Shown piece after piece: positions 1 to 15,962 of a stretch of DNA of 64,000 bases. The notes under the pieces were generated by a model, which was given only the letters and a program-made list of their open reading frames with translations, made no database searches and had not been told where the DNA came from. The position numbers and the translations under genes are program-made. Origin of the DNA: Ketobacter sp. (GTDB lineage Bacteria > Pseudomonadota > Gammaproteobacteria > Pseudomonadales > Ketobacteraceae). Position 1 is the stretch's first letter. Every line of letters begins with the position of its first letter. Where the stretch lies: positions 62,001 through 126,000 of the forward strand of contig NZ_RCHN01000007.1 in assembly GCF_003671495.1 (NCBI RefSeq), written 5' to 3'.

Positions 1-118
1 GCCCGTGTACATACAGCATGGGCAGAAAGCCTTCGGTGGTTTCCAGCAGCTCACCGGACTCATCCAGAATGCGGATGTGCAGGGCCACCAGTTTGTTGTT
101 CTGGATGCGGTCGCTCAT
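1..118 (-). CDS. FKBP-type peptidyl-prolyl isomerase, SlyD-like (partial, N-terminus only)
   Basis: The minus strand opens with ATG at 118 and stays open to the window edge, giving 39 residues. The visible part contains VALHIRILDE, then GELLETT, and ends in P-x-L-Y-V-H-G. That is the first strand and the P-x-x-Y-x-H-G turn of SlyD-type FKBP domains. Such proteins catalyse proline isomerisation and act as chaperones; many also bind metals through a C-terminal tail, which lies outside the window. The upstream neighbour (226-804) is on the same strand, but a terminator at 172-199 separates the two, so this gene probably has its own promoter. Family is fairly clear; the exact paralogue cannot be decided from 39 residues. 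Confidence 0.7.
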   Translation of the reverse strand, partial: MSDRIQNNKLVALHIRILDESGELLETTEGFLPMLYVHG

Positions 119-164
119 GCCAATGGACGCTCTTCAAGAGATTCTAAAAGACCTGAACAAGCTT

Positions 165-200
165 ATAAAAAAGGGCGATCGAATTCGCCCTGTTTTTTTA
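165..200. terminator. Bidirectional-looking rho-independent terminator
   Basis: A 7-bp stem (172-178 with 185-191, arms AGGGCGA and TCGCCCT) has a six-base loop. On the plus side it is followed by seven T. On the minus side the complement of the A-run at 167-172 gives U residues as well. It sits just past the end of the minus-strand DUF1569 gene (stop at 226), so it most likely ends that transcript and insulates the SlyD-like gene. Confidence 0.75.
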
Positions 201-225
201 GCCTGATACTGCGCGTGGCGTCAAC

Positions 226-804
226 TCAGTAGGTCAGGCTGGAGAAGTGGTCCGCCATGTGGAAGGCATTGGCCAGTTCCCACTCCCGGTAATTCAACTT
301 TCCATAGGCGAAATGGGGGAACAGCTCACCGGTGAAGCTCTGGAAATCGCTGATGGCGTTACGGATGCGCTCAAAGGCTTCCGGCAGGGGGCCATCGTCG
401 GCGATTTCCGGGCCGGGCACTGGTGCGCTCAGGTTGTGGCTCATATAGCCCTGGGCCACGAAGGCCTGGAAGGCAATGTACTGAACGGCCTGTTGCGCCG
501 GTGGGTCGGTTTCCGGAAAACCGAACATGGCGCCTTCGCAGGTCTTGGCCAGGTGGTTGAGTACCTTGTACAGGCTCCACTCCTGTTGCATTTCCAGGGT
601 GTCCAGGTTGTTTTCAATCTGGGCCAACTCGATCAGGGCTTCATTCAGGTCGCCAAAGCGCAGGCCCCGGCCGTTGTTGCTGCAGCCGGACAGGGTGCCC
701 AGGCCGGCTGCGGCGGCCACACCGACAGACAGGCGCAAAAAGGATTTTCGGCTCATGGTGGTTGGCGCGGGAAGTTCTCCTAGGCCGTTGTTTTTATTGT
801 TCAT
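226..804 (-). CDS. DUF1569 family lipoprotein, Tat-like signal
   Basis: 192 residues. The N-terminus has a short polar stretch, then MSRKSFLRLS, a hydrophobic run and the lipobox L-S-G-C, so a lipidated protein is expected. The S-R-K-x-F-L pattern resembles a twin-arginine signal in which the second Arg is Lys. The rest is helical and matches DUF1569, a DinB-like four-helix family; the C-terminal H-M-A-D-H-F-S-S-L is typical. The role of the family is unknown to me. A second ATG at 756 starts exactly at MSRKSF and could be the true start. The gene is followed by a strong terminator and looks like a single-gene unit, divergent from the CorA gene. Confidence 0.6.
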   Translation of the reverse strand: MNNKNNGLGELPAPTTMSRKSFLRLSVGVAAAAGLGTLSGCSNNGRGLRFGDLNEALIELAQIENNLDTLEMQQEWSLYKVLNHLAKTCEGAMFGFPETDPPAQQAVQYIAFQAFVAQGYMSHNLSAPVPGPEIADDGPLPEAFERIRNAISDFQSFTGELFPHFAYGKLNYREWELANAFHMADHFSSLTY

Positions 805-943
805 GTCTCACTCTCTACAGGCTTGGTCCAATGGGGGAAGAACGGTTGTGACAGCTCTGATGATGGATTATAAAGGTGGCCATGGACAAAAAGCGCCCGT
901 CCATAGGGATGGGTAGTTTTGATAGATTGATAAGGCGATAGGC

Positions 944-1909
944 ATGATTCGAACCCAGTGGTTGAAAGACGGAGCAGTACAGGCAGGACACGAGGAGCTG
1001 ATCAGCCGCTGGCAAAGTGAAGGCGGTACCATCTGGATCGACCTGGAGGGGGAGGATGAAGCGCAGGAGAAGGCCTTTCTCACCGGGTTGGGCTGCCATA
1101 TCCTGGCGGTGCAGGATGCCCAGCGCCAGCGGCATCCTCCCAAGTACGAGGATTTCGAAACCAATACCTTCGTGCTGTATCGTGGCTTTGAGCGCTTTGA
1201 CCAGGACATCAATGTCCGTCACGTGCAGGTGGCGTTTTTCATCGGCACCAACTTCCTGATCAGTCGTCGCAACGGCACTTCCTTCGGGGTGGAGAAACTG
1301 TGGAACGTGGTGGAGGATGTGCAGCGTTATCTGCCCACCCCGGCCATTCTGTTCACCCGCATCGTCAATCAGTCCCTGGGTGAGTACATCAAGCGCATGC
1401 TGGAGTTGGAGGACAACATCAGCCGCATGGAAGACGAAATGCTGGACGACCCCACCGACCAGTTGATGCAGCGCTTTGTGTCCTATCGTTCCCGCCTGCG
1501 CAAGTTAAACCGGGTCTTCAGTTATCATGAAAAAGTGTTTGCGGAAATTCTGAAGGAGCCCACCGAGATCCTGGATATGTCCAATTCCGCCATCTATCAC
1601 TCCATGCAGGATGTGTACGACAAGTGTGAGCGGTTGGACAGCCTGGGCACGCTGTATTACGAGCAGTGCGGCGATTTGATTGAAGGTTATATCTCGTTGA
1701 CGTCGCACCAGCTGAACAAAACCATGCAGGCGCTGACGGTGATTACGGCGATTTTTGTGCCGCTGGGTTTGTTGTCCGGAATCTATGGGATGAACTTCGA
1801 ACACATGCCGGAACTGCACTCCCGCTACGGTTACTATATCCTGCTGGGTGTGATGGCGACGGTGGCGATTACGTTGCTGGCGTTCTTCCGTCGCCGGCGC
1901 TGGTTGTAG
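944..1909 (+). CDS. CorA/ZntB-family divalent cation transporter
   Basis: 321 residues, normal length for the family. The N-terminal two thirds form the cytoplasmic alpha/beta and long-helix funnel. The C-terminus has two membrane helices. The signature Y-G-M-N at about residues 281-284, followed by F-E-H-M-P-E-L, is the CorA pore loop, and the protein ends in a basic tail RRRRW as CorA proteins do. It should work as a pentamer in the inner membrane and move Mg2+, Co2+, Ni2+ or, in the ZntB branch, Zn2+. The E-x-M-P-E-L loop is common to Mg2+ and Zn2+ members, so the metal cannot be assigned from sequence alone. It stands alone and ends 6 bases before the convergent gene at 1916. Confidence 0.9.
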   Translation: MIRTQWLKDGAVQAGHEELISRWQSEGGTIWIDLEGEDEAQEKAFLTGLGCHILAVQDAQRQRHPPKYEDFETNTFVLYRGFERFDQDINVRHVQVAFFIGTNFLISRRNGTSFGVEKLWNVVEDVQRYLPTPAILFTRIVNQSLGEYIKRMLELEDNISRMEDEMLDDPTDQLMQRFVSYRSRLRKLNRVFSYHEKVFAEILKEPTEILDMSNSAIYHSMQDVYDKCERLDSLGTLYYEQCGDLIEGYISLTSHQLNKTMQALTVITAIFVPLGLLSGIYGMNFEHMPELHSRYGYYILLGVMATVAITLLAFFRRRRWL

Positions 1910-1915
1910 ATTCGG

Positions 1916-2230
1916 TTAGTCTTCGTGTTTGCGGGCGTAGGCCAGCAGCTCTTCTGCCACTTTTTCCCGAATGGCGTTCTGGTCATCGGGATCAAGGCCG
2001 TATTTTTCCGCCAGAATGGTGAAGTCCTCGGCTTTCAGGGAGACCGTGAGCCGGGGGCGCAGGGGCTTTTTATTATAGGGTAAACCCAGAATCTTGCGGA
2101 TCTGGTCCGGCGGATTCAGATTGCTGTCCAGCGCCGCCTGCTTGATCACGCGCTGCGCCTCCGCCGATACATCAAAGGCCACCTGGACGGCTTTGATGGC
2201 CTGCTTCTCTTTTTGCCAACGTTCGTTCAT
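1916..2230 (-). CDS. Hypothetical protein, 104 aa, downstream of the PspA unit
   Basis: I do not recognise this family. It is a soluble, charged, mostly helical protein without signal peptide or membrane segment. The first half is helical with AEAQRVIKQAAL, the middle has a basic linker with K-K-P-L-R-P-R, and the second half is an acidic helix ending in KHED. The N-terminal part loosely resembles a ribbon-helix-helix or plasmid-partition accessory protein, which is inference only. The gene follows pspA on the same strand. The 104-base gap contains a hairpin and three 11-bp repeats (2258-2308), so it may be separately controlled. Confidence 0.65.
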   Translation of the reverse strand: MNERWQKEKQAIKAVQVAFDVSAEAQRVIKQAALDSNLNPPDQIRKILGLPYNKKPLRPRLTVSLKAEDFTILAEKYGLDPDDQNAIREKVAEELLAYARKHED

Positions 2231-2257
2231 GCTGTTACCTGTTTACCACGCAAAAAG

Positions 2258-2308
2258 CGCGATACCGCACGCAGTGGTATCGCGTTGGTATCGCGTTGGT
2301 ATCGCGTT
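2258..2308. repeat. Three tandem 11-bp repeats plus an inverted copy
   Basis: GGTATCGCGTT occurs three times head to tail at 2276-2286, 2287-2297 and 2298-2308. CGCGATACC at 2258-2266 is the exact inverse complement of the first nine bases, so the first repeat can form a 9-bp hairpin with a nine-base loop. It lies between the end of pspA and the start of the 104-aa gene. It may act as a transcript-end hairpin for pspA or as a binding array for the next gene. No T-run follows the stem directly. Confidence 0.7.
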
Positions 2309-2334
2309 AAGAATGCCGTAATCCGTTTTCAGGA

Positions 2335-3024
2335 TTACTGTTTGCCAGCTTTGATCCGGGCCAGGATGTCAGCCGCTGATGCGGTTTCCCCTTTGATGCC
2401 CGCTTCTTCCAGTTTGCTGTCCAGGTCGTTACCGGCGAATTCCTTGTCCAGCAACTCGCCGGCTTCCAGTTGATCCTGTTTCAGTTCCTGGCGGGCTTTG
2501 ATGCGCTCCAGGGATTCCCGTGCCGTGTTCAGGGTGGAGTTGTTGGCCGCCACGTTTTCCACCACCTGCTCTGTGGCTTTCTGCACACTCTCAGTGGTGC
2601 GCACGATGGACAGCTCGCGCTCGTGATCGGCAATCAGCTTCTCGGCTTTTTTGATGTGGGCTTTCAGCTGCTCCACCTGGCCGGTCAGGCGCGCCACAAT
2701 GGCATCCTGCTCCCGCTTTTCGCCTTCAAAGGTGGCGATCTTGCCGGCCACTTCCAGGGCCAGAGCCTCATCGCTTTGATCCAGGGCTTTGCTGGCATAG
2801 CCTTCGTGGGTGCGGATATCCTCCACCAGCTTGCTGACCTTGCGTTCTGCCTGCATCTTGCGGGCCATCACTTCGGTCAGATTGGTTTTGGCCTGCTGGA
2901 TACTGTTCTTGGCGTCGATGATTTCCTGCTCGAAAATGCGGATGCCATTGGAGTCCACGATGGCATCGCCCATTTCCCGTACGCCGCCACGCAGTGCAGT
3001 CCAGATTTTGTTTAGTACGCTCAT
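2335..3024 (-). CDS. PspA/IM30 family membrane-stress protein
   Basis: 229 residues, nearly all long helix, the usual length of PspA/Vipp1 proteins. The N-terminus (MSVLNKIWTALRGG, then ALVDS-like and E-Q-E-I-I-D-A) is the amphipathic membrane-binding helix and first coiled coil. The protein ends in a short helical domain rich in Ala and Glu. PspA/IM30 proteins are structural relatives of ESCRT-III; they polymerise on damaged inner membrane. No pspB, pspC or pspF is nearby. The partner upstream is a DUF2170 (YjfI) gene 23 bases away, so this matches the E. coli YjfJ context rather than the classical psp operon. Expression is likely governed by the palindromes at 3475-3642. Confidence 0.92.
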   Translation of the reverse strand: MSVLNKIWTALRGGVREMGDAIVDSNGIRIFEQEIIDAKNSIQQAKTNLTEVMARKMQAERKVSKLVEDIRTHEGYASKALDQSDEALALEVAGKIATFEGEKREQDAIVARLTGQVEQLKAHIKKAEKLIADHERELSIVRTTESVQKATEQVVENVAANNSTLNTARESLERIKARQELKQDQLEAGELLDKEFAGNDLDSKLEEAGIKGETASAADILARIKAGKQ

Positions 3025-3047
3025 GTTGTGTCTCCGGTCTGTGTTCG

Positions 3048-3455
3048 TTAAATCAGGTATTCTTCCAGGGCTTCCAGTGCGTCGTAAGCATTGGAGGCCA
3101 GGGTGATCAATTCTTTGCAGGTGTCGTTAAAGCTGCTGCTGGTGGCCATGGCACCGAACACCACGTAATAATCTTCTACAATGGCAAAGGAGCTCAGTGG
3201 CATGGCCACGTTCAGCTCCAGCATGGTTTTGTTCAAATCGGCCATCCGTTGCGGCTGGATTTCCGATTGCTTGCACAGGTACGTGATGCACAGAATCTGG
3301 GTATCGGTGATGGTGACGAAAATGGGCATGGCATCCAGTTCCGACACGATCACCTGCAGCACCTCCTGTTCGCCCTGAATGGGTAAGCAGTTAAAGGTGT
3401 GCCCTTCGTAATTCACCTGCCCCAATTGAATGGTGAGTTCCTGGATTTGGGTCAT
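3048..3455 (-). CDS. YjfI/DUF2170 family protein
   Basis: 135 residues from the chosen ATG at 3455, which has AAGGAG ten bases upstream. An in-frame ATG at 3479 would add eight residues but lies inside an operator palindrome and would place the ribosome site within the protein, so I reject it. The sequence is a small alpha/beta fold with L-D-A-M-P-I-F-V-T-I and V-E-D-Y-Y-V-V-F-G-A motifs. DUF2170 (E. coli YjfI) is repeatedly found next to PspA-type proteins. Its biochemical role is not established to my knowledge; an adaptor or regulator of the PspA polymer is plausible inference. First gene of the minus-strand unit, followed by pspA. Confidence 0.8.
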   Translation of the reverse strand: MTQIQELTIQLGQVNYEGHTFNCLPIQGEQEVLQVIVSELDAMPIFVTITDTQILCITYLCKQSEIQPQRMADLNKTMLELNVAMPLSSFAIVEDYYVVFGAMATSSSFNDTCKELITLASNAYDALEALEEYLI

Positions 3456-3474
3456 CGTTGCTTGTCTCCTTTTT

Positions 3475-3642
3475 GACATATTATGTCGATAGGGTTAAGG
3501 TTAGACCTGCCTGACATATCATGTCAAGCAAATCTGTCTAACCGGATAAAACCTTGCTATCGTTGCGTCTCTTTGAGGCAGGATTATAACAACATCAATC
3601 TTGACATATTATGTCTAAGCGTCTAGTTTGACATAATATGTC
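3475..3642. promoter_or_regulatory. Four-copy operator array GACAT-N3-ATGTC in a divergent promoter region
   Basis: Perfect 5-bp inverted arms with three-base centres occur at 3475-3487 (centre ATT), 3513-3525 (ATC), 3603-3615 (ATT) and 3630-3642 (AAT). Copies 1 and 2 lie at the promoter side of the minus-strand DUF2170-pspA unit. Copies 3 and 4 lie before the plus-strand YqiJ-flotillin-AAA unit. Copies 2, 3 and 4 each contain TTGACA, a -35 hexamer, in the direction of the gene they face. A dimeric regulator bound here would therefore block or reset both promoters together. No regulator gene is visible in the neighbourhood, and I cannot name the family from the site. Confidence 0.8.
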
Positions 3643-3659
3643 TGCTGTCGGGGATTTAA

Positions 3660-4310
3660 ATGGAAGCATTCATTTCTAATATTTTTCACTATCCTACTGT
3701 TTTTTTTACGATTTTATTGGCGGTTATCACGCTCTATTGGGCCGTTGCTGCGCTGGGGCTAATTGAGCTGGACGTGTTGGACTTAGATGTCGATTTCGAC
3801 GCGGATCTGGATGTCGAAGGCCTTACAGGAATAGCTGGGTTAATGGTTACTCTCGGGTTAACTGGCGTACCTTTTACGATAGTCCTGACACTGCTGGTGT
3901 TGCTTGGCTGGTTCATTAGTTACTTTGTGGTCCATTTGTTCTTCTTTTGGGGGTATGGCACTTTCATGACGTACCTTGTGGGTACTGCGCTTATCCCTGT
4001 TGCAATAGCGGTATCAATCCCTGTAACGGCGGCTTTGATTCGGCCGCTGAAACCACTGTTTAAAAAGGCCTATGCGCCGGTACCGGAGAAAGTATTGCTG
4101 GGGCGCCCTTGCAAAGTGCGTTCTACGCGAGTGGATGAAAACTTTGGCGAAGCGACCGCAGATTTAGAAGGAGCAAGTCTAATACTTAAAATCAGGGCTG
4201 AAGCTAATAACAAAATTAAAAGAGGCGATATGGTGGTGTTAATAGAACACTATCCGGAAAACAACACCTACTGGGTTGTGCCCGAGCACGAATTTAATTC
4301 GAATCACTAA
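3660..4310 (+). CDS. YqiJ-like inner-membrane protein (OB-fold, NfeD-like partner of flotillin)
   Basis: 216 residues. Membrane segments lie around residues 8-35, 58-90 and 95-120, with an acidic stretch of alternating D and V (about residues 38-53) between the first two. The C-terminal 80 residues are a beta-rich soluble domain with G-R-P-C-K-V-R and K-R-G-D-M-V-V-L, typical of the OB fold in NfeD/YqiJ proteins. E. coli YqiJ is encoded directly before the flotillin YqiK, and the same order is seen here, with 38 bases between the genes. It likely tethers flotillin oligomers at the membrane. Upstream lie operator copies 3 and 4; the ribosome site is only GGGG. Confidence 0.82.
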   Translation: MEAFISNIFHYPTVFFTILLAVITLYWAVAALGLIELDVLDLDVDFDADLDVEGLTGIAGLMVTLGLTGVPFTIVLTLLVLLGWFISYFVVHLFFFWGYGTFMTYLVGTALIPVAIAVSIPVTAALIRPLKPLFKKAYAPVPEKVLLGRPCKVRSTRVDENFGEATADLEGASLILKIRAEANNKIKRGDMVVLIEHYPENNTYWVVPEHEFNSNH

Positions 4311-4348
4311 TCACGATACTCTCCAATAAAATAAGAGGAATACATGCT

Positions 4349-6418
4349 ATGGAAATGGTCATGCCCTTTCTGGTTGGCTTTGCAATAATAGTTCTAGGAG
4401 TAGTTGCTGTACTGGCGTTGTTCAAAGCCTTTTATATCAAGGTTGATCAGGGTAATGCGTTGATCGTGAACGACATGTCCAGATCGCCAAAGGTGTACTT
4501 CACTGGTGCCATGGTGCTGCCAGTGATCTACAAAAAGGAAATCATGAAGATTTCCGTCATCACCCTGGAGATTGATCGCCGGGGCAAGGATGGTTTGATC
4601 TGTCGCGACAACCTGCGGGCTGACATCAACGTCGCCTTCTACTTGCGGGTGAATGAAACCGCCCAGGACGTGTTGAAAGTGGCGAAAGCCGTGGGTGTGG
4701 ATCGAGCTTCGAACAAAGATGCGGTGAACGAGTTGTTCAACGCCAAGTTCTCCGAAGCCCTGAAAACCGTGGGTAAGAAAATGGAGTTCCTGGAGCTGTT
4801 CGAAAACCGCATCCAGTTCCGTGATCGCATTATTGAGGTTATCGGCGAAGACCTGAATGGTTACGTGCTGGAAGACGTGGCCATCGATTATCTGGAACAA
4901 ACGCCGAAGTCGGCACTGGACCCTCACAATATCCTGGATGCGGAAGGTATTCGCCGCATCACCGAAGTCACCGCCACCCAGAACGTGGAAACCAATCGCC
5001 TGGAGCGGGACGAAGAGCTGGAAATCAAGCGTAAGAACGTCACCACCAAAGAGGCCATGCTGGAGCTGGAGCGTCAGCAGGCGGATGCGGAAGCCCGCCA
5101 GCAGCGTGAAGTGGAAAGCCTGCGCGCCCGTGAGGAAGCGGAAACCCTCAAGGTCAAGGAAGAGGAACGCCAGAAGTCTGAGTCGGCCCGCATCACGGCG
5201 GAAGAGGCCATTGCCATTGCCGAAGAAAACAAAATGCGTCAGGTGGAAATCGCTGGCAAGAACCGCGAACGTGCGGTGGCCATTGAGCATGAGAAAGTGG
5301 AAAAAGCCCGTCAGCTTGAGGTGGTGAACCGCGAGCGGGAAGTTGAACTGCAAACCATCGAAAAAGAAAAGGCACTGGAAGAAGAGCGCAAGATCATCGC
5401 CAATACCATCAGCGAACGCATCGCCGTTGAGAAGAAAGTGGCAGAAGAGGAAGAGCGCATCAAGGATGTTCGCACGATCTCCGAAGCGGAACGTCTGAAG
5501 CAGGTGAAAGTGCTGGATGCGGAAGCCGATGCCCAGGAAGACCTGGTGAAACAGGTGAAGAAAGCGGAAGCCGAAGAGATGATGGCCAACCACCGGGCGA
5601 AGGAAATCAATGTGATCGCCCAGGCGGAACTGGAAGCAGCGGCCAAGCAGGCGGAGGCCCAGATCAAGCGTGCCGAAGGCACCCAGGCGGAAGAAGCGGC
5701 CATGGGTCTGGCCCAGGCCCGCGTGCAGGAAGCCAAAGCGGTGGCGCTGGAGAAAGAAGGCGTGGCCAAAGCCAACGCCGATCAGGCGCAAGGTATCGCC
5801 CGTGCCCGTGTTATTGAAGAGCAGGCTGCGGCCAACGAGAAACAGGGTCTGGCGGATGCCCGGGTGCTGGAAGAAAAACTGCAGGCCAAGGCCCGTGGTG
5901 AGAAAGAAATCGGCATGGCAGACGTGGCCATCATGGAAGGCAAGCTGACTGCGCAGGCCAGTGGTGATGAGGCCATCGGTCGTGCCGCTGCGGTGGCAGA
6001 GCGTGAGAAAGGCCTGGCCACTGCCCAGGTCATCCGTGAGAAGGCGCGTGCTGAAGCGGAAGGTCTCACTGACAAGTTCGAAGCCATGAACAATATGAGT
6101 CCGGAAGCCCGTGACTTTGAAGAATTGCGCATGCGCCTGGATCTGGCGTTCCAGGAAGTCATGGCCACCATCGAAGCCAATAAGGACATCGCCAAAGATC
6201 AGGCGGAAGTGCTGTCGGCGGCTCTGGAGAAAGCGAAGATCGAAATCGTGGGCGGTGAAGGCGATTACTTCAACAGCTTTGCCAAAGCCCTGTCGGTGGG
6301 CAATGCCATCAATGCGGTCACCGGTAAGAGCCCCATGATTCAGCAGGCGTTGAACAAGCTGATCAATCTGGGTGGTGAAGAAAAAGCCGTTGCAGCGGAT
6401 TCCCCGAAAGAAGCATAA
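4349..6418 (+). CDS. Flotillin family protein (YqiK-like)
   Basis: 689 residues, longer than E. coli YqiK. One membrane helix covers about residues 4-27. A band-7/SPFH domain follows (to about 200, with Y-I-K-V-D-Q-G-N-A and L-R-A-D-I-N-V-A-F). Then comes a very long coiled coil, about 220-600, full of E-A-E-A and R-A-R repeats, and the flotillin C-terminal helix ending near 670. Flotillins assemble into large rings or cages in membrane microdomains. GAGGA at 4335-4339 sits ten bases before the chosen ATG. It is the second gene of the plus-strand unit and lies 15 bases before the AAA gene. Codon and base use look like those of the neighbours. Confidence 0.93.
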   Translation: MEMVMPFLVGFAIIVLGVVAVLALFKAFYIKVDQGNALIVNDMSRSPKVYFTGAMVLPVIYKKEIMKISVITLEIDRRGKDGLICRDNLRADINVAFYLRVNETAQDVLKVAKAVGVDRASNKDAVNELFNAKFSEALKTVGKKMEFLELFENRIQFRDRIIEVIGEDLNGYVLEDVAIDYLEQTPKSALDPHNILDAEGIRRITEVTATQNVETNRLERDEELEIKRKNVTTKEAMLELERQQADAEARQQREVESLRAREEAETLKVKEEERQKSESARITAEEAIAIAEENKMRQVEIAGKNRERAVAIEHEKVEKARQLEVVNREREVELQTIEKEKALEEERKIIANTISERIAVEKKVAEEEERIKDVRTISEAERLKQVKVLDAEADAQEDLVKQVKKAEAEEMMANHRAKEINVIAQAELEAAAKQAEAQIKRAEGTQAEEAAMGLAQARVQEAKAVALEKEGVAKANADQAQGIARARVIEEQAAANEKQGLADARVLEEKLQAKARGEKEIGMADVAIMEGKLTAQASGDEAIGRAAAVAEREKGLATAQVIREKARAEAEGLTDKFEAMNNMSPEARDFEELRMRLDLAFQEVMATIEANKDIAKDQAEVLSAALEKAKIEIVGGEGDYFNSFAKALSVGNAINAVTGKSPMIQQALNKLINLGGEEKAVAADSPKEA

Positions 6419-6433
6419 AGGCAGGGACGGTCA

Positions 6434-9400
6434 GTGACAGACGTGAGTCAGGCAGCCAGCGCCACACAAGGCATGAAACAAAGTACGGAACAGGTTGAAT
6501 CGGCGGTGGCCCAGGGCACCGCCTACGAAGTCATTCGCAAGCGCCTGGCGGATCAGGGTAACCGTCTGGAAGCCCTGGCCAATCAACTCAATCAGGCGCG
6601 CCTGCAGGAGTTCGGTTCCACCGAGTTGAGCATCATCGGCCGCACCCGAGTGCGCACCGATAACAACTGCCTGGCCCGGGATATTGTACGGGTGGGCGAT
6701 TACCTGCTGTTTGGCTACAACGTCTTTATCGGACTCAAACAAACCACCTCGGTGGCGGATGTGTTTTCCCTCTATCGGTTGGTGGAAGGGGAAGACGCGC
6801 TGGACATGGAGCCGGTGTCTGCCCAGAACACGTTTCTGGGAGATGCCCGGTTTCAGTCCGATTTCAATGAGCTGTATACCTATTACAAGAACACCTCGCT
6901 AACCCAGTTACGGGTCAAGGAGGGGCGTCTGCTGGCGGCGTTCCAGATCGGCGAGCGGTTGACGGATATTCGCGTCTTCCGCTGGTCGGTATCGGCGGAT
7001 GGTTCACAGATTGAGTACATTGATAACCGCGGCGAGCGCGACATTGAGCTGCCGCCGGCGTGGGATTTCCAATGGCGCGAGGTGGATCGGGAAGCCATTG
7101 TCGACGGTCGCCATCCCCATGTGAATATCCTCGATACCTTATTCGTGGATACCATCGCCGGCGACCTGACCATCAAGGTGGAAAACAACACCCGCAGTGG
7201 TAAAGGCATCTATGCGGAGCCGGTGGACGATCCCAATCAATCCCTGGATGACGCGGATTTCCTGTTTGCTGAGATCGGCCAGCTGATTCTGTTGCGCATC
7301 AAGCCCTATCAGGAAGAGCGCTGGCGCCACCTGGTGTTCAATCGCCTGAACCAGTCTGTGGTGCGCATTGACGCCATCGGTGACAGTTGCCAACAGTTGC
7401 CGGAGGATCACGGCATAGTATTTCCCGGCGGTTATTACCTGCAGACGGGGGAATACAAAACCTTTGATGAACCGCATGAGGGCCTGCGCTTCCGTCGTGC
7501 CATTCGCTCCCCCAACGGCGAGGATGTGCTGTACGTGCACTACCAGGCGGAAACCGGTGTGGTGGCCCTGTATCCTTACAATATGATCGAGAAGGCCCTG
7601 CGCAATCCGGTCTATGGCCATGGCTACGGCCTGTTTGAAGATGGCCGCATGGTGGTGTTCTCGGCCGACGAGGAACCCACCCGTGTGCATCCCATGCAAA
7701 TCTGGCAGTCGCCGTTTTTCAGTGACGTTCACGCCAGCCAGGCGCAACAGTCCCAGAGTTTTTACGGCCGGATTGGCAACGCGGAACTGGTGCGGGGTAT
7801 TTCGGATTTGTTCAGTGTGGTGCAGCTGATCCGCAGCCCCAATGCGGCGTCGGCCCATTATCACGAGTTGTGCAAATACGCCTCCCGCCTGTTTGATCAG
7901 TATTACTGGTTGTCGGACGCCTCCTTGGCGGAGACCCATGACATCCTGAAGGCCATCATTGAGTCCGGCGAGCTGGTGCTGGATGAATATGAAAAAGTCC
8001 AGAGTATCCGCAAGAGTTCCCAGAAAGCGTTGCAGGATGCCGAGCAATCCGTGGCGGCGCTGATCAAACGGATGCAGCCGGACGCCTGGACCACACCACA
8101 GCCCTTCATGAATGCCATGCTGGGCATTCGCAAGCTGCGGGGCCACCTGCTGACCATCCTGGATTACCGCTACATCAACCAGGAACGGATTCGGGAACTG
8201 GATGGCGAGTTGGAGCAGCAGCAGGACGCCATTGCAGCGCGCACCATTGATTTTCTGGCGGAGGAGCAATCCCTGCAGCCGTTCTACGATGATCTGGAAC
8301 ACCTGGAAAAGCAGGTGGCAGACACAGACATCAAATCCGAGCTGGCGCCTTTGCTGGAGAAACTGGCGACCCTCAGTGATGGGCTGGATGCCCTCACCGA
8401 AACCGTCAGCGCCATTACCGCGGCGGAGGCCACCGTCCGCACCGCCATCATCGAACGCATCTCCACCCTGTTTGCCCATTTGAACCAGGCCCGTGCCCGC
8501 ACCCAGAACAAACTGAAGAGCCTGGGCTACAACGAGGCCCTGGCCCAGTTTTCCGCCCAGTTCAAACTGTTGTCCCAGAGCATGACCAGCGGCCTGAGCC
8601 TGTCCACCTCGCCGGATCGCTGCGACCAACAACTGGCCAAACTGATGAATCAGTTGCAAGAGCTGGAAAGCCAGTTCGGGGAGTACGATGAATTCCTGGC
8701 GGACATCCTGGAAAAGCGGGAAGAGATTTTTGAATCCTTTGAATCCCACAAGCAGGGTCTGTTGGATGAGCAGCAACGCCGGGCGCAAACCCTGCACGAT
8801 GCCGCCAAACGCATCATCGACGGTGTCCGCAAGCGCAGTCAGAAATTCAAGACCGAAGAGGAACTGAACACCTTCTTCAGTTCCGATCCGCTGCTGAACA
8901 AGCTCAAGCAGTTGTCACAGCAATTGCGTGAACTGGATGATGCGGTCAAAGCCGATGATGTGGACGCCCAGTTAAAAGGGGTGAAAGATCAGGCGGTGCG
9001 CTCCCTGCGGGATAAATCTGATATTTATGAAGACGACGGCAAGGTCATCAAGCTGGGGCCGCGCCATCGTTTCAGCGTCAACACCCAGGATCTGGATTTG
9101 ACCCTGCTGCCCCGGGGTGAGGAACTGTATTTTCATTTGTCGGGCACGGATTTTTATGAAGCCTGTGACATCGAAGGGCTGCAGGGCACCCAGGCTTACT
9201 GGAATATGGCCATGGCTTCGGAGTCCGAACAGGTCAGTCGGGCGGAATATCTGGCTTATTCGGTATTGCGGGCGGCGGAACGCCATCAGGAAGCGCTCTC
9301 CATCACACAATTGATGCAGGCGCGCAACCAGCGGGAAGCGCTGATGGAGCTACTGCGCCAGTACGCTGAACCCCGTTATAAAGAGGGCTATGAGCGGGGC

Positions 9401-11731
9401 ATCCACGACCACGATGCGGCGCTGATCCTGGAACGCCTGTTGCCCCAGTATGAGCTGGCGGATCTGTTGCGCTTTGATCCTTTGGCGCGGGCCTGGGCCA
9501 CACTGTACTGGGCGCAAACCCAGGACCAGGATGAGCAGAAGCAGTGGCCCATGCGGGCCCAGTCTGCCGTGCAGATGTCCAACCTGTTTGGCAGCGATCG
9601 GGCCTTCAACGAGTTGTGGCTGGAGGTAGGTGAGCAGCTGCAGGAATTCCTGCAACAGCAGGGTGTCGCGGGGGCGGAGTCATTTGCCCGGCGCAGCGCC
9701 CGTTACCTGATCCTGGAACTGGCCAAACCGATGTTGGAATTTTCCGTGACCCGGGCCAGCCAGACGTTGATGGAAAGCCTGCAGCGGGCGTTGAAACAAG
9801 CCAATGCCCAGTCGGTGTTTGAAGACAATATCCGCGCCTTGCAGGGAACGCCGGGCAAGGCCTGGCGTTATGTGGAAGGGTGGCTCAGCGCCTGGTTGCA
9901 CCAGCAGGAGGATCAATCCCTCCACGCCTTCATTCCTGAGGCGGTGGTCCGCATCCTGGTGGATGGCCGCCTGGCCTGGAAACCCCGCGAGTTGAATCTG
10001 GAGCTCACGGTGGACGGTTTGCTGTCGTCCCATGCCAATATTGAACAGGGCAGCCTGACAATGCGACTGGATGAATTCCTGCTGCGTATGGAGCAGCACC
10101 AGACGGTGGTGGTGCCGGCTTACCAGCGCTATCAGGCGCAGCGCCACCAGGCTGTGGAAACCGAGAAAAAACGCTTGCGCCTGGATCAGTTCAAGGCGCG
10201 GCCGTTGTCCTCGTTTGTGCGCAACAAACTCATCAATCAATCCTATTTGCCGCTGATCGGTGACAACCTGGCCAAGCAGATGGGGACGGTGGGCGATAAA
10301 AAACGTTCTGACTTGATGGGACTGTTGATGATGATCTCGCCCCCCGGCTACGGCAAAACCACGTTGATGGAATACGTGGCCAATCGTCTGGGTCTGATCT
10401 TTATGAAGATCAACTGTCCATCGTTGGGGCATGAAGTGGATTCCCTGGATCCGCAGCAGGCGCCCAATGCGACCGCCCGCCAGGAATTGGAAAAACTGAA
10501 TCTGGGTCTGGAAATGGGTAACAACGTGATGTTGTATCTGGACGATATCCAGCATACCAATCCCGAGTTTCTGCAAAAATTCATTTCCCTCTGTGACGGG
10601 ACCCGGCGCATCGAAGGCGTATGGAAAGGGCAAACCAAAACCTACGACATGCGCGGTAAAAAATTCTGCGTGGTGATGGCGGGGAACCCCTACACAGAAA
10701 GCGGCGAGCTGTTCAAGATTCCGGACATGCTGGCCAACCGGGCCGACATCTATAACCTGGGTGACGTCTTGAGCGGCACCGAAGAAGTGTTTGCCCTCAG
10801 CTACATTGAAAACAGCATGACTTCCAATCCGGTGCTGGCGCCGTTGGCCACCCGCGACATGGCGGACTTCTATCTGTTTGTGGATATGGCCAAGGGCCGG
10901 GCGGTGAATGAATCCGAATTCAAGCACCCCTATTCCGCCGCCGAGAGCCGCGAAATCGTTGAGACGCTGAAAAAATTGTTCCTGGTGCAGGCAGTGGTGT
11001 TGAAAGTGAATCAACAATACATCGAATCCGCCGCCCAGGACGAACGCTTCCGTACCGAGCCACCGTTCAAGTTGCAGGGCAGTTACCGCAATATGAACAA
11101 ACTGGCGGAGAAAGTGACGCCGGTTATGACCGCCGATGAACTGGAGGCACTGCTCAATGATCATTATCTGGGGGAGGCGCAGCTGCTGACCACGGGAACC
11201 GAAGCCAACCTGCTCAAGTTAAAAGCGCTGCGCGCAGTGCTTACCGCCGAGGAAGCGCAGCGTTGGGAGGCCATCAAACAGGAATTCCGTCGCCTGAAGC
11301 AGATCGGTGGCGACGACGCCGATGTGGGCGTGCGGGTGGTGTCGCAGTTGAATGCCATGTCCCAGGGCATTGAAAAAGCGGTCACGGCCCTGTCAGCCCG
11401 TGCGGAATTGCCTGCCTCCGCGAATAACGATGGCTTGCAGCAATCCCTGCAGTCCATCGCCGACGCCATGGCCAACATGACCACCCACGTGGAGGTGGTC
11501 AATCAGCCGGTGCCGGGCATCGACCTGTTGCTGCAGGGGTTGGTCTCCACCCTGGAAGGCAGCATCTTTCCGCTGGTGAAGGCCATGGACGGCAAAATCG
11601 ACCTGGATCTCAAGACCCATCACAAAATGGGTGCCATACTGGAACAATTGCGCACGTTGGAAGCCAGCATGTTGCGGTTGAAGCATACCACCCGAGGCAG
11701 TAGCGGCAACACTGCGGGGCCGGGGGAATAG
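6434..11731 (+). CDS. Giant AAA+ ATPase with N-terminal 'DNA repair ATPase' region
   Basis: 1765 residues from a GTG start at 6434. The N-terminal ~450 residues are beta-rich with repeated short units, like the region annotated as DNA-repair ATPase in long bacterial homologues. Residues about 500-1000 are helical and coiled-coil rich. The AAA+ domain is near residues 1250-1550: Walker A P-P-G-Y-G-K-T-T at 1303-1310, Walker B L-Y-L-D-D at 1367-1371, and sensor-1 Asn 1418 in A-G-N-P. An arginine-finger candidate lies in L-A-N-R-A-D. The C-terminus is again helical. The repair label is an inherited annotation; the fixed context with flotillin, YqiJ and PspA suggests membrane or polymer remodelling instead, which is inference. 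Confidence 0.85.
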   Translation: MTDVSQAASATQGMKQSTEQVESAVAQGTAYEVIRKRLADQGNRLEALANQLNQARLQEFGSTELSIIGRTRVRTDNNCLARDIVRVGDYLLFGYNVFIGLKQTTSVADVFSLYRLVEGEDALDMEPVSAQNTFLGDARFQSDFNELYTYYKNTSLTQLRVKEGRLLAAFQIGERLTDIRVFRWSVSADGSQIEYIDNRGERDIELPPAWDFQWREVDREAIVDGRHPHVNILDTLFVDTIAGDLTIKVENNTRSGKGIYAEPVDDPNQSLDDADFLFAEIGQLILLRIKPYQEERWRHLVFNRLNQSVVRIDAIGDSCQQLPEDHGIVFPGGYYLQTGEYKTFDEPHEGLRFRRAIRSPNGEDVLYVHYQAETGVVALYPYNMIEKALRNPVYGHGYGLFEDGRMVVFSADEEPTRVHPMQIWQSPFFSDVHASQAQQSQSFYGRIGNAELVRGISDLFSVVQLIRSPNAASAHYHELCKYASRLFDQYYWLSDASLAETHDILKAIIESGELVLDEYEKVQSIRKSSQKALQDAEQSVAALIKRMQPDAWTTPQPFMNAMLGIRKLRGHLLTILDYRYINQERIRELDGELEQQQDAIAARTIDFLAEEQSLQPFYDDLEHLEKQVADTDIKSELAPLLEKLATLSDGLDALTETVSAITAAEATVRTAIIERISTLFAHLNQARARTQNKLKSLGYNEALAQFSAQFKLLSQSMTSGLSLSTSPDRCDQQLAKLMNQLQELESQFGEYDEFLADILEKREEIFESFESHKQGLLDEQQRRAQTLHDAAKRIIDGVRKRSQKFKTEEELNTFFSSDPLLNKLKQLSQQLRELDDAVKADDVDAQLKGVKDQAVRSLRDKSDIYEDDGKVIKLGPRHRFSVNTQDLDLTLLPRGEELYFHLSGTDFYEACDIEGLQGTQAYWNMAMASESEQVSRAEYLAYSVLRAAERHQEALSITQLMQARNQREALMELLRQYAEPRYKEGYERGIHDHDAALILERLLPQYELADLLRFDPLARAWATLYWAQTQDQDEQKQWPMRAQSAVQMSNLFGSDRAFNELWLEVGEQLQEFLQQQGVAGAESFARRSARYLILELAKPMLEFSVTRASQTLMESLQRALKQANAQSVFEDNIRALQGTPGKAWRYVEGWLSAWLHQQEDQSLHAFIPEAVVRILVDGRLAWKPRELNLELTVDGLLSSHANIEQGSLTMRLDEFLLRMEQHQTVVVPAYQRYQAQRHQAVETEKKRLRLDQFKARPLSSFVRNKLINQSYLPLIGDNLAKQMGTVGDKKRSDLMGLLMMISPPGYGKTTLMEYVANRLGLIFMKINCPSLGHEVDSLDPQQAPNATARQELEKLNLGLEMGNNVMLYLDDIQHTNPEFLQKFISLCDGTRRIEGVWKGQTKTYDMRGKKFCVVMAGNPYTESGELFKIPDMLANRADIYNLGDVLSGTEEVFALSYIENSMTSNPVLAPLATRDMADFYLFVDMAKGRAVNESEFKHPYSAAESREIVETLKKLFLVQAVVLKVNQQYIESAAQDERFRTEPPFKLQGSYRNMNKLAEKVTPVMTADELEALLNDHYLGEAQLLTTGTEANLLKLKALRAVLTAEEAQRWEAIKQEFRRLKQIGGDDADVGVRVVSQLNAMSQGIEKAVTALSARAELPASANNDGLQQSLQSIADAMANMTTHVEVVNQPVPGIDLLLQGLVSTLEGSIFPLVKAMDGKIDLDLKTHHKMGAILEQLRTLEASMLRLKHTTRGSSGNTAGPGE

Positions 11732-11808
11732 TGCCCTGGAGCTAGGGGCTGCTTTCCAGTAGAGTGCAATGCAGGTGTTTTCATTAACCAGGTGACGAGA
11801 GAGTCCGG

Positions 11809-13674
11809 GTGGAATCCAATTTTATTCTGAGCTTTGCCATGGTCGGCCTGCTGGGTCTGGTGTGTCAGTGGGTGGCCTGGCGGCTGCGCTTGCCGGCCAT
11901 TTTGTTTTTGCTGCTGACCGGCATTGTGGTGGGGCCGGTGGCCGGCTGGCTGAATCCGGACATGATGTTCGGCGACATGTTGTTTCCGCTGGTGTCCATG
12001 GCGGTTGCCATCATTCTGTTTGAAGGCAGCCTGACCCTGAAATTCAAGGAAATTCAGGGCATGGAATCGGTGGTGTGGCGTATCCTCAGTTTTGGTCTGG
12101 TGGCCAGCTGGGTGAGCATTTCGGTGTTCACCAGTTGGCTGTTGGACATGGACTGGCACCTTTCCCTGCTGTTTGGGGCCCTGGTGGTGGTCACCGGTCC
12201 CACGGTGATTGTGCCCATGTTGCGCTCGGTGCGCCCCAATGCTCGCATCACCAATATCCTGCGCTGGGAAAGCATCCTGATTGATCCGCTGGGGGCGCTG
12301 CTGGCGGTACTGGTGTTTAATTTCATCGTGGCGGAATCCACCGGTGGCAATGAATGGCTGGCGGTGATGCTGGTGTTTTTCAAGATCCTGGTGATTGGCA
12401 GCGCATTGGGCTGTGGAGCCGGTTATATCTGCGGCTGGCTGCTGCGCAACGATGTGATTCCCAACTACCTGCACAATGTGTTTGTGTTGATCTCCGTGCT
12501 GGCCGTGTTTGCCTTGTCCGATACGCTGGAACACGAATCCGGGCTGCTGGCCGTGACCATGATGGGGATCTGGCTGGCCAACATGCGCGGGGTGGAAACC
12601 GAAAACATTCTCGACTTCAAGGAAAGCCTGAGCATCCTGCTGATTTCCGGCCTGTTCATTATCCTGGCGGCGCGGGTGAACCTGGATGACCTGGCGGTGT
12701 TGAGCTGGCAGGCCCTGGCCATCCTCGGCTTTATTCACTTTATTGCCCGCCCCCTGAAGATCATCAGCGCCACCCTGGGCACCTCCATCACCTGGCAGGA
12801 GAAAACCCTCATTGCCTGGATCGGGCCCCGCGGCATCATCGCGGCGGCGGTGTCGGCGCTGTTCGCCTTGCGCCTGTCCCAGCTGGGCTTTGAGAATGCG
12901 GATCTGCTGGTGGCCCTCACCTTCGTGGTGATCATCGGCACGGTGGTGTTCCAGAGCCTCACCGCCAAGCCCCTGGCCACCTGGCTGGGTGTGGTGGAAC
13001 AGGCGCCCCGCGGCCTGCTCTTCATTGGCGCCAACCAGGTCTCCCGCACCATCGCCAAGGAACTGAAACGACTGGGCTTTGATGTGATGCTGGCGGACAG
13101 CTATCGCAACAACGTGCGCCAGGCCCGTATGGACGGTCTGAAGACGTTCCACGGCAACCCGGTGTCCCGACTGGCGGAAAAAGAACTGGATCTGGTGGGC
13201 ATTGGTCGCATGCTGGGGTTGTCCCAGAACGACGACCTGAACTTGCTCGCGGTACAACGCTATACCCGTGAGTTTGGCAAGAAGCGGGTGTACGCGTTGC
13301 CCACGCAAGCCAGTCTGCGCAAGAGCGAACGGGAGACCGTGTCCGAGGAACTGTCCGGTATCGCGTTGTTCTCAGAGGACGCCACCTACAGCAAGTTGGC
13401 CAGTCTGGTGGCCCAGGGCGCGGAGATGCGTACCACCAATATCAGCGAAGAATTCACCCTTGAGGATTACCTGGAGAAATACGGCAGCAAGGCGATCCCG
13501 ATGTTTGTGCTGGACCCGCGCAAACAGTTGACCATCCTGTCCGGTGCGCCCACCCGCGAGCAGGTAACCCCCGGCTCACGCATTGTGGCGCTGGTGAAAG
13601 TGGAGCGGGTGGTGGAAAAAATCGAAGAGAAAAAGCAGGAAGCCAAGGGGGCGGATAAAGCCGCGGAGAAGTGA
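11809..13674 (+). CDS. Na+/H+ antiporter of the CPA family with C-terminal RCK/TrkA domain
   Basis: 621 residues starting at GTG 11809. About twelve membrane helices fill residues 1-390. T-G-P-T-V-I-V-P near residue 125 and W-E-S-I-L-I-D-P near 155 correspond to the ion-binding helices of CPA antiporters. From about residue 400 there is a nucleotide-binding RCK fold (L-F-I-G-A-N-Q-V-S-R-T-I-A), then a TrkA-C-like region and a charged Lys/Glu tail. It should exchange Na+ or K+ for H+ across the inner membrane, gated by NAD(H) or a nucleotide on the RCK domain. It follows the AAA gene by 77 bases and may have its own promoter. Which cation it prefers cannot be read from the sequence. Confidence 0.88.
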   Translation: MESNFILSFAMVGLLGLVCQWVAWRLRLPAILFLLLTGIVVGPVAGWLNPDMMFGDMLFPLVSMAVAIILFEGSLTLKFKEIQGMESVVWRILSFGLVASWVSISVFTSWLLDMDWHLSLLFGALVVVTGPTVIVPMLRSVRPNARITNILRWESILIDPLGALLAVLVFNFIVAESTGGNEWLAVMLVFFKILVIGSALGCGAGYICGWLLRNDVIPNYLHNVFVLISVLAVFALSDTLEHESGLLAVTMMGIWLANMRGVETENILDFKESLSILLISGLFIILAARVNLDDLAVLSWQALAILGFIHFIARPLKIISATLGTSITWQEKTLIAWIGPRGIIAAAVSALFALRLSQLGFENADLLVALTFVVIIGTVVFQSLTAKPLATWLGVVEQAPRGLLFIGANQVSRTIAKELKRLGFDVMLADSYRNNVRQARMDGLKTFHGNPVSRLAEKELDLVGIGRMLGLSQNDDLNLLAVQRYTREFGKKRVYALPTQASLRKSERETVSEELSGIALFSEDATYSKLASLVAQGAEMRTTNISEEFTLEDYLEKYGSKAIPMFVLDPRKQLTILSGAPTREQVTPGSRIVALVKVERVVEKIEEKKQEAKGADKAAEK

Positions 13675-13695
13675 GCCAGGCGTGGCCCACGCCCC

Positions 13696-14880
13696 CTAGG
13701 GCATGAAAACGAAGCGGGCCGGCGCGGTCTGCCGAATCAAATCCCCGTGCTGATCCAGGGCGTTCACCTGCCAAAGGTAGGTGGCGCCGGGCTTCAACTG
13801 ATCCAGTAACGCGGCGGACAGCACTGTGCCGGTTCTGGGGGCCGGAATCAGCAGGCGGCCCACATACTCCCCCGAAGTCACACTTTCTTTCCCGTTCTCC
13901 TGGCGCAATACCAACTCGTAGATCACCGTATCGGCCGTTGCCGGCCAGGTCAGTTGCGTGCTGGCAGAGAGAGAGGCCGGTGTCTGGATGGCGGAGGTCT
14001 GCTGGCTGTCGGCAATGACCTGATATTCCAGGGTACTGCTGAGTTGCTGGTTGGGGCACAGGTTGGCGGGAGTGGCCTGCACGGTCTCAAGGGATTCCAG
14101 GGCACAAAAACGCAGCACGTGGTGACCGGTTTTGATCGTATCCAGCTGCGGGCTCAGCAGCCAATCCTTTCGGCCCTGCTGCAGGTCTTTGTTGACTTGC
14201 GCCAGCTCTTGATACACCAGTTGGCCGCTGCCGGGATCGATGGTGCCCAGCTGCCAGCTGCCCTGCAATTGACCCTGGCCGGAATAGATGATGCCCAGCT
14301 GCGCCTGCAACGGTAAGCCCTGGCTGATCTGGCTGCGAAAACGTTGGGGTTTGAAGCTCAGTTCCAGATTGTGAATGGCCAGAGGCACATTCAGGGTGAC
14401 GGCGTTCAGGCCCATGTCCTTGGTGGCCAGCAGGATGCTGACGCTGGCTTCGCTGGTGGAAGGCTTCTCGCTGCCGGTGCTGAACTGGCGGGTGTACTGC
14501 AGTTTTCGATAGCCCAGTTCCAGCCACTTGCGGGCTTCCTCTGCGGTGATGATCAGGGCTTCCTCAAAATGCAGGGGGCCTGCGCCTTCGCTGTCGTTAA
14601 AGGGGGTGACCTGGGTTTTCAACACGGTGCTGGTGGCGGCATCCTTCAGCACGCCCTGGGGGGAAAAGGCACCGGTGTGGTGAGCGGGGGTGGTGGACAC
14701 AATCCAGCGCACCTGAATGGTCCGGCCTTCCTCCACCAGCACCCGGGCCTGCTTGGGGTTGCTGCTGGCTCCGATCAGGGACGCCTGGGCAACACTGCCG
14801 CAGAGCACCATCAGCAGTGTCAATACGGTGCAATGGAGGGTAACCCTCGCGGTGGCGTAGCGGCGTGGTGAACAAAACAT
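13696..14880 (-). CDS. Secreted hypothetical protein with C-terminal fibronectin-III-like domain
   Basis: 394 residues. A signal peptide (residues ~15-33, cleavage after A-Q-A) sends it to the periplasm or beyond. The mature part is beta-rich. Residues 300-394 look like a fibronectin type III domain: T-W-P-A-T-A-D-T-V-I-Y-E-L-V-L near its start and G-A-T-Y-L-W-Q-V-N-A-L-D near its end. The N-terminal half, with an early V-R-W-I-V strand, could be another immunoglobulin-like domain. I do not recognise a named family. It converges with the antiporter gene; a short hairpin at 13679-13693 lies between the two stops. No partner gene is obvious. Confidence 0.6.
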   Translation of the reverse strand: MFCSPRRYATARVTLHCTVLTLLMVLCGSVAQASLIGASSNPKQARVLVEEGRTIQVRWIVSTTPAHHTGAFSPQGVLKDAATSTVLKTQVTPFNDSEGAGPLHFEEALIITAEEARKWLELGYRKLQYTRQFSTGSEKPSTSEASVSILLATKDMGLNAVTLNVPLAIHNLELSFKPQRFRSQISQGLPLQAQLGIIYSGQGQLQGSWQLGTIDPGSGQLVYQELAQVNKDLQQGRKDWLLSPQLDTIKTGHHVLRFCALESLETVQATPANLCPNQQLSSTLEYQVIADSQQTSAIQTPASLSASTQLTWPATADTVIYELVLRQENGKESVTSGEYVGRLLIPAPRTGTVLSAALLDQLKPGATYLWQVNALDQHGDLIRQTAPARFVFMP

Positions 14881-14976
14881 CCCTATCTCCGGTTGGTGTA
14901 AACGCTGGGGGCAGAGTCTACCGAAGCCAGCTATGGGAGAGAAGGGGACAGGGTAACAGAATATGAATGCAGCGGC

Positions 14977-15867
14977 TCAATGGTCATAGTAGCCGGAAGC
15001 GGCAACGCCGCTGTTTTCCATCTGGGCCGCCAGGTCGTCAAAATCCAGCTCACTCAGCCCCACGTACACCAAAAGGTCTTCGCCGATGGCCTCCCATTCG
15101 TGGTCCTGTTCACTGTTGCCCAGGGTTTGGGGCAGACCACACAGGTGTTCTGCCATCTTCAGAATCGCCAGCAGGGTTTTGCGGCCGTGGTCATAGCTGC
15201 TGGCCCGGTGCCGGAAGATGTTCTCCACGCTGTGGTGCTCGGCGATCACGTCGCACAGGTCCGCCGGCAAGCCCCAGGATTTTGCCACATAGTAGCCAAC
15301 CACCGCGTGGTTGGTTTTCAGGTACTGGTTCTCCACGTCGATGATGCGGGGGTTGGGTTGGGAATAGGATTCCTCCAGCACCGCCTGGTAGTTATCATGG
15401 GCGCGGTACAGCAGGGGCACCCCGCAGTTATGGAACAAGCCCACGCAATAGGCTTTGTCACCGGCCTTGTAACCGATGGCCCGGGCCAGGGTGGCGGCGG
15501 CGTTGGCGATGTCCAGGGCGCTGTCCCAGAAGCTGCTGAGGGCCACAATGGTTTCATCATCCATCTGGCTCTTGATGGAGAGGCCTTCCATGATGCGCAC
15601 GATGGTGGGCAACCCCAGAATCTGCACCGCCTGTTCAATGGAGGTCATGCGGCTTTTCATGCCGAACAGGCTGGAGTTGACCACTTTGAGAATGGTCCCG
15701 GACAGGCCCACATCCTGGCTGATGAGTTTGGCAATCCGATCCAGGTCCGGGTTGGGCATGGCCTGTTCCATGTGGATGTCCACAATCACCTGGGGCTGTG
15801 GGGGAACCGTTATACCACGCAGTATTTTGGCAATGTGCTCGTCGTCCAGTATGGGAGTGGAGGTCAT
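14977..15867 (-). CDS. HDOD domain signalling protein
   Basis: 296 residues from ATG 15867; a TTG at 15888 would extend it by seven residues but has no better ribosome site. The whole protein is one HDOD domain, a relative of HD phosphohydrolases that usually lacks catalysis. Typical parts seen are L-I-S-Q-D-V-G-L-S-G-T-I-L-K-V-V-N-S, then I-E-Q-A-V-Q-I-L-G-L, V-G-L-F-H-N-C-G, and A-E-H-H. The H-N-C-G replaces the H-D of active HD enzymes, consistent with a signalling role. HDOD proteins are linked to c-di-GMP, motility and stress control. It is divergent from rlmI. Confidence 0.88.
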   Translation of the reverse strand: MTSTPILDDEHIAKILRGITVPPQPQVIVDIHMEQAMPNPDLDRIAKLISQDVGLSGTILKVVNSSLFGMKSRMTSIEQAVQILGLPTIVRIMEGLSIKSQMDDETIVALSSFWDSALDIANAAATLARAIGYKAGDKAYCVGLFHNCGVPLLYRAHDNYQAVLEESYSQPNPRIIDVENQYLKTNHAVVGYYVAKSWGLPADLCDVIAEHHSVENIFRHRASSYDHGRKTLLAILKMAEHLCGLPQTLGNSEQDHEWEAIGEDLLVYVGLSELDFDDLAAQMENSGVAASGYYDH

Positions 15868-15962
15868 TTCGGTATAATCCGCGGCCAACTTATTATTAAT
15901 CAGTTTAGCAGCCGGCCAATGATGCTCCAGTTGCTGGACAATTAGACTGTGGAGCCGTTCCT

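Follow-up and report, generated by a model that had tools for sequence, protein, structure and literature searches.

PspA belongs to the ESCRT-III superfamily, and in the classical Psp system it relays the state of the membrane to PspF. A gene neighbourhood combining CesT/Tir-PspA with band-7/flotillin, YqiJ and AAA+ genes has already been described, together with a proposed ESCRT-like assembly, in the main text of Ravi et al. (2024, PMC11237479), which also records shorter flotillin-YqiJ-AAA+ operons; neither the cluster nor the analogy is thus new, and that main text mentions no operator or regulon. In P. aeruginosa, the bac cluster PA3732-PA3729 has an osmotic-shock and biofilm phenotype (PMC2587700, PMC10948618). 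It resembles the locus studied here in its DUF2170-PspA pair, PA3730 and the SPFH protein PA3729, and differs in its putative sigma-54 site and in that the AAA+ protein is unnamed in the bac papers (PMC2587700, PMC10948618).

The window analysed here, 64,000 nucleotides of a Ketobacter sp. genome (contig NZ_RCHN01000007.1), holds the same five families as the neighbourhood of Ravi et al. side by side, and differs from it by a divergent layout, by the gene for a predicted ribbon-helix-helix (RHH) protein, RHH104, and by four putative operators. While the operon itself is known, the link between regulator and operator and the candidate regulon that follows from it are, against the open-access literature searched, new.

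The locus and its divergent control region

The features of the locus, in window coordinates, are:

1916..2230, minus strand: RHH104, 104 aa, predicted tandem ribbon-helix-helix protein and candidate dedicated regulator (homologues in 10 loci; model)
2335..3024, minus strand: PspA/IM30 (YjfJ-type), ESCRT-III superfamily (PF04012, PspA_IM30, 2.9e-38)
3048..3455, minus strand: DUF2170/YjfI (BacA-type, CesT/Tir-like), likely start ATG 3455 (PF09938, 2.6e-37)
3475..3487, no strand: putative operator 1, GACATATTATGTC (palindrome search, as for operators 2 to 4)
3513..3525, no strand: putative operator 2, GACATATCATGTC, one mismatch
3603..3615, no strand: putative operator 3, GACATATTATGTC
3630..3642, no strand: putative operator 4, GACATAATATGTC, just before YqiJ
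3660..4310, plus strand: putative YqiJ/YuaF-like membrane protein (synteny; profile family adjoining flotillin in 71/73 loci)
4349..6418, plus strand: flotillin (SPFH, YqiK-type; Band_7 over cut-off, N-terminal fragment)
6434..11731, plus strand: AAA+ protein, 1765 aa (Pfam DUF3686 2.3e-202, AAA 5e-7)
10196..11233, plus strand: AAA+ core, about residues 1255-1600, predicted MoxR-like (model, structure comparison)
11809..13674, plus strand: CPA1-type cation/proton antiporter (PF00999, 3.1e-40), 77 bp past the AAA+ gene

The sequence-only reading had named PspA, DUF2170, YqiJ, flotillin and the AAA+ protein, and all five are present as open reading frames with Pfam support or, for YqiJ, by synteny. 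Its gene positions stand, with two corrections. The DUF2170 frame was first called at 3048-3479(-), but its start at 3479 falls within an operator, and since the ATG at 3455 is preceded by an AAGGAG ribosome site (AAAAAGGAG), the latter is the better start. In addition, the RHH104 gene at 1916-2230(-), directly behind pspA, had been overlooked; it belongs to the locus as its sixth gene. The N-terminal fragment of flotillin exceeds the Band_7 cut-off in Pfam (28.4 against 23.6 bits), the Flot match of the C-terminal fragment being sub-threshold. The YqiJ-like protein of the window, OB-fold domain included, has no Pfam match, and its tentative assignment rests on synteny and on a weak YqiJ_N match in a homologue from another locus (L016).

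This gene order is repeated in dozens of genomes, a conservation that exceeds chance. The antiporter also lies behind the AAA+ gene in two near relatives (L017 and L094) and is a possible operon tail of the AAA+ arm; its position parallels that of nhaA, a regulon target elsewhere. Of the classical psp genes that had been called absent, pspC was looked for with Pfam and not detected, either in the window or near the other two pspA genes of this genome (L004-L006). The third pspA of this genome (L005:7875-9380) adjoins a response-regulator gene. A known defence system was rejected because PADLOC returned weak coiled-coil matches only. An Rfam scan of positions 1-16000 found nothing, scans of the locus for sigma-70 promoters and terminators did no better than shuffled sequence, and NCBIfam gave only a weak similarity to BacA.

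The control region shared by the two arms, to which the sequence-only reading had drawn attention, proved the most informative part of the locus. The 13-bp palindrome GACATAWTATGTC occurs in four copies between the PspA and flotillin arms and in none of 100 shuffles; the sequence-only reading had not noted these repeats. The 5.3-Mb genome has just one further copy with up to one mismatch, some 150 bp upstream of an htpX-like gene (G000:C13:228676, L015:1502; one mismatch), a label given by sequence, Pfam having been run on the htpX of another genome only. Across 1.88 Mb of 82 related loci, all matches to GACATNNNATGTC precede genes of this system. All four divergent loci carry RHH104 and four sites each, with two apiece in L027, L087 and L089, where the arms are co-directional.

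RHH104 and its candidate regulon

The predicted model of RHH104 consists of two strand-helix-helix units (pLDDT 70). VIA-align ranks 1-10 (Z 4.2-6.9) are, by our reading, all RHH or RHH-like, headed by F-plasmid relaxosome chains, which we take to be TraY, single-chain Arc and AvtR (Z 6.0-6.9) and including two DndE entries and MazE. Foldseek gave no significant match with the model, Pfam recognized RHH_1 weakly and in one family member only, and a profile search of the PDB returned nothing useful. The comparison suggests that RHH104 folds as a tandem ribbon-helix-helix protein, with modest model confidence.

The palindrome goes with the RHH104 gene. An even sample of 398 genomes across the phylum contained full-length RHH104 in 21, and exact sites were present in 19 of these 21 versus none of 24 genomes lacking it (45 scanned; Fisher 9e-11), while a reversed-pattern control gave zero matches in all 45. 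One of the two exceptions, G297, has no exact site and carries two degenerate sites before DUF2170; the other, G338, has an incomplete contig. Among genomes encoding DUF2170, sites were found in 19/20 with RHH104 versus 4/30 without, and within a single family in 5/5 versus 1/7. DUF2170 as the carrier of the site was rejected, as 26 of the 30 genomes with DUF2170 and without RHH104 have no site. The four that do have one site each: in G404 it precedes DUF2170, RHH104 being undetected in an assembly that is 57% complete, and in G388, G179 and G509 it lies by unrelated genes, at the rate expected by chance (about 0.15-0.23 per genome). From this co-occurrence we infer that RHH104 binds the palindrome.

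We sorted the 77 exact sites by hand, with Pfam backing the label for examples from every main class and the remainder assigned by sequence and operon similarity:

33/77: before the DUF2170-PspA operon
8/77: before NfeD/SPFH pairs
7/77: between a glnE-like gene and a lipoprotein/DUF350/spermidine-synthase operon
6/77: before htpX
5/77: before PspA-PspC
4/77: before nhaA
2/77: before prohibitin-like SPFH genes
1/77: before YqiJ-flotillin-AAA+, unlinked from RHH104 (G139)
11/77: others, including AIM24, an ion channel, an RND membrane-fusion protein and an RpoH-like sigma factor

The sites stand near start codons, as would fit repression. Of the 44 sites outside the DUF2170 operon, 33 precede the named target classes, and the set looks like a candidate inner-membrane stress regulon, apparently undescribed, in which RHH104 would be the DNA-binding protein. 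A search of the open-access literature found no known RHH/Psp/htpX regulon, and the motif appeared once, in an unrelated plant paper. In our view it is somewhat more likely than not that Gamma- and other proteobacteria possess a hitherto undescribed regulon for inner-membrane integrity, with RHH104 as its master regulator. This regulon would bring together PspA, both YjfJ-type and in classical PspA-PspC, with SPFH/NfeD scaffolds, flotillin-AAA+, HtpX, NhaA and polyamine genes, and the activity of RHH104 would depend on PspA and DUF2170, which share its operon.

Both arms, PspA and flotillin-AAA+, carry a site in G139, although the two are unlinked there. The same operator stands before the PspA-PspC operon of this genome (L124:5447-6996), so that its psp operon may answer to the RHH regulator rather than to PspF. 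A single in-frame TGA, close to the start of the gene, splits the AAA+ gene of G139 (L009:5417-10510). The flotillin-AAA+ operons of G330 and G275 have no site, and this operon is therefore not always part of the regulon; most AAA+ loci, those of Pseudomonas among them, have no RHH104 and must be under some other control. The shared module is thus not regulated in the same way everywhere. The sigma factor gene behind a site in G330 (L128:8644-9541) encodes sigma-70 regions 2 and 4 and is RpoH-like, and in two species membrane proteins of 120-126 aa lie behind the operator (L169:3569-3931, L181:4062-4442).

Partners and clade of the AAA+ protein

From 84,980 species we took the best 80 of at least 558 AAA+ loci and scanned them with profiles of the proteins encoded in the window. 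Counting loci with enough flanking DNA among these 80, whose frequencies lean towards near relatives since they are the closest, the AAA+ gene is adjoined by flotillin in 74/76 and accompanied by YqiJ in 71/73, PspA in 52/71 and DUF2170 in 51/71. The conserved membrane-remodelling system that had been proposed is supported by these counts, although PspA is a less steady partner than flotillin. Gene neighbourhood links the giant AAA+ protein with flotillin and YqiJ. Partial distance correlations over 49 complete loci (AAA-flotillin 0.62, AAA-YqiJ 0.49, PspA-DUF2170 0.46, AAA-PspA -0.25) were read as two submodules.

In the even 398-genome sample, DUF2170 was present in 8/8 AAA+ genomes versus 50/398 overall (hypergeometric 4e-8). 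Among 17 AAA+ genomes picked for a locus without PspA or DUF2170, seven encode DUF2170 elsewhere, and ten lack it genome-wide, namely one Thiotrichaceae MAG and nine enterobacterial genomes (Limnobaculum, Pragia, three Providencia, Enterobacteriaceae B14, two Xenorhabdus and Proteus). In these nine, PspA is also absent at the AAA+ locus. The length of the C-terminal tail of the AAA+ protein does not cleanly track the presence of PspA.

The AAA+ protein comprises DUF3686 (residues 45-491), a helical middle including DUF7902 and the C-terminal AAA+ core, in which Walker A (1302-1311) and Walker B (1365-1372) are nearly invariant. Pfam found neither an MIT domain in its 1765 residues nor a protease domain. 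The core was modelled with 47 homologues, at a mean pLDDT of 72 that drops to low values in places near the P-loop. After Walker B the model shows a helix and then, ahead of the sensor-1 strand, a beta-hairpin (about 1393-1404); in model numbering, the hairpin strands are 204-208/211-215 and the sensor-1 strand 223-226. The classical AAA clade, Vps4 included, is not known to have such a pre-sensor-1 hairpin. NorQ/CbbQ occupy VIA-align ranks 1-10 (Z 9.2-10.5, rmsd 4.6-5.9, 211-228 residues aligned), with archaeal Vps4 at Z 7.7; in Foldseek, RuvB, ClpX, ClpB-type domains and NorQ rank first. A PDB profile search, which returned mostly the P-loop of p97-like proteins, was uninformative on clade. 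With moderate certainty, the model thus places the core as MoxR-like and not Vps4-like.

A two-module reading and its relation to known systems

We believe, with a probability of about two in three, that the locus is best explained as two modules under one RHH104 switch, with the AAA+ protein working at a flotillin/YqiJ scaffold. The first module would consist of DUF2170-PspA and the tandem-RHH protein, the second of YqiJ-flotillin and the giant MoxR-type AAA+ protein. RHH104 would bind the four copies of the palindrome and most likely repress both arms. PspA may coat the damaged inner membrane, and together with DUF2170, since all three are encoded together, it may relay the state of the membrane to RHH104, much as PspA informs PspF in the classical system. 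Membrane damage, the presumed inducing signal, would sequester PspA/DUF2170 and so relieve repression. Once expressed, flotillin and YqiJ would assemble into a scaffold at the membrane, and the AAA+ protein would remodel client proteins on it.

The Vps4 role is one of two that the sequence-only reading had suggested for the AAA+ protein. In such a bacterial ESCRT-III/Vps4 analogue, the AAA+ enzyme would take PspA polymers apart and flotillin would anchor the system in the membrane. Such a role would suit the membership of PspA in the ESCRT-III superfamily, the association with PspA in 52 of 71 loci among the best 80 of at least 558 and the presence of DUF2170 in all eight sampled AAA+ genomes, and ESCRT-like roles are proposed in the main text of Ravi et al. 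(2024, PMC11237479). The pre-sensor-1 hairpin and the better MoxR fit do not support it, however; the AAA-PspA partial correlation is not positive, and nine enterobacterial genomes keep the AAA+ protein without DUF2170 and without PspA at the locus. We consider this analogue improbable. The alternative offered alongside it, an AAA+ protein that acts on the flotillin assembly or together with it, is the better fit. Overall, the earlier interpretation is partly supported. A further explanation resembles FtsH-HflKC: the AAA+ protein would extract or refold membrane proteins inside an SPFH cage, and PspA would be a separate response sharing regulation only. It draws on the association with flotillin (74/76 of the same best 80 loci), on AAA-flotillin as the strongest partial correlation and on the candidate regulon, which takes in htpX and SPFH genes, but Pfam finds no protease domain and the AAA+ clade differs from that of FtsH. 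We give it a little less than even odds; it is compatible with the two-module reading and differs by denying any cooperation between PspA and the AAA+ protein.

Another factor, e.g. a widespread regulator, could bind the palindrome while RHH104 merely travels with DUF2170-PspA; binding by RHH104 is deduced from co-occurrence, the G404 site precedes DUF2170 with RHH104 undetected in its 57% complete assembly, and one locus (L020) has sites before pspA and no RHH104 beside it, as far as the locus extends. Against this, sites are absent in 26 of 30 DUF2170 genomes without RHH104, and within one family six of seven genomes without RHH104 have none whereas all five with it have them. We find this explanation unlikely.

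For a known but unexplained operon, the two-module reading supplies a candidate dedicated regulator and a clean 13-bp site that make its function testable, and the link between RHH104 and the operator would yield a regulon, a list of candidate genes and a reporter that can be induced. It places Psp, SPFH/NfeD and HtpX, which are usually studied apart, in one response, and it redirects the ESCRT/Vps4 analogy for the AAA+ protein to MoxR-type remodelling at flotillin scaffolds.

Unlike the classical Psp system, the window and L004-L006 gave no PspC match beside pspA. The likeness to Vps4/ESCRT-III lies in PspA as a member of the ESCRT-III superfamily; the predicted AAA+ core differs by its pre-sensor-1 hairpin and MoxR-like fold, and its steadiest partner is flotillin. 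The MoxR family (NorQ, CbbQ) provides the best structural neighbours of the core, which is here fused to DUF3686 in a 1765-aa chain. The Pseudomonas loci that we compared are co-directional and without RHH104, whereas the window is divergent and has it. The spermidine-synthase operon of group 2 in the main text of Ravi et al. (2024, PMC11237479) ends in an RHH factor, and the order DUF2170-PspA-DUF4178-RHH is also found in G139 and others; that factor had no assigned site in the main text, whereas the RHH protein described here is linked, by co-occurrence, to a palindrome and to distant targets.
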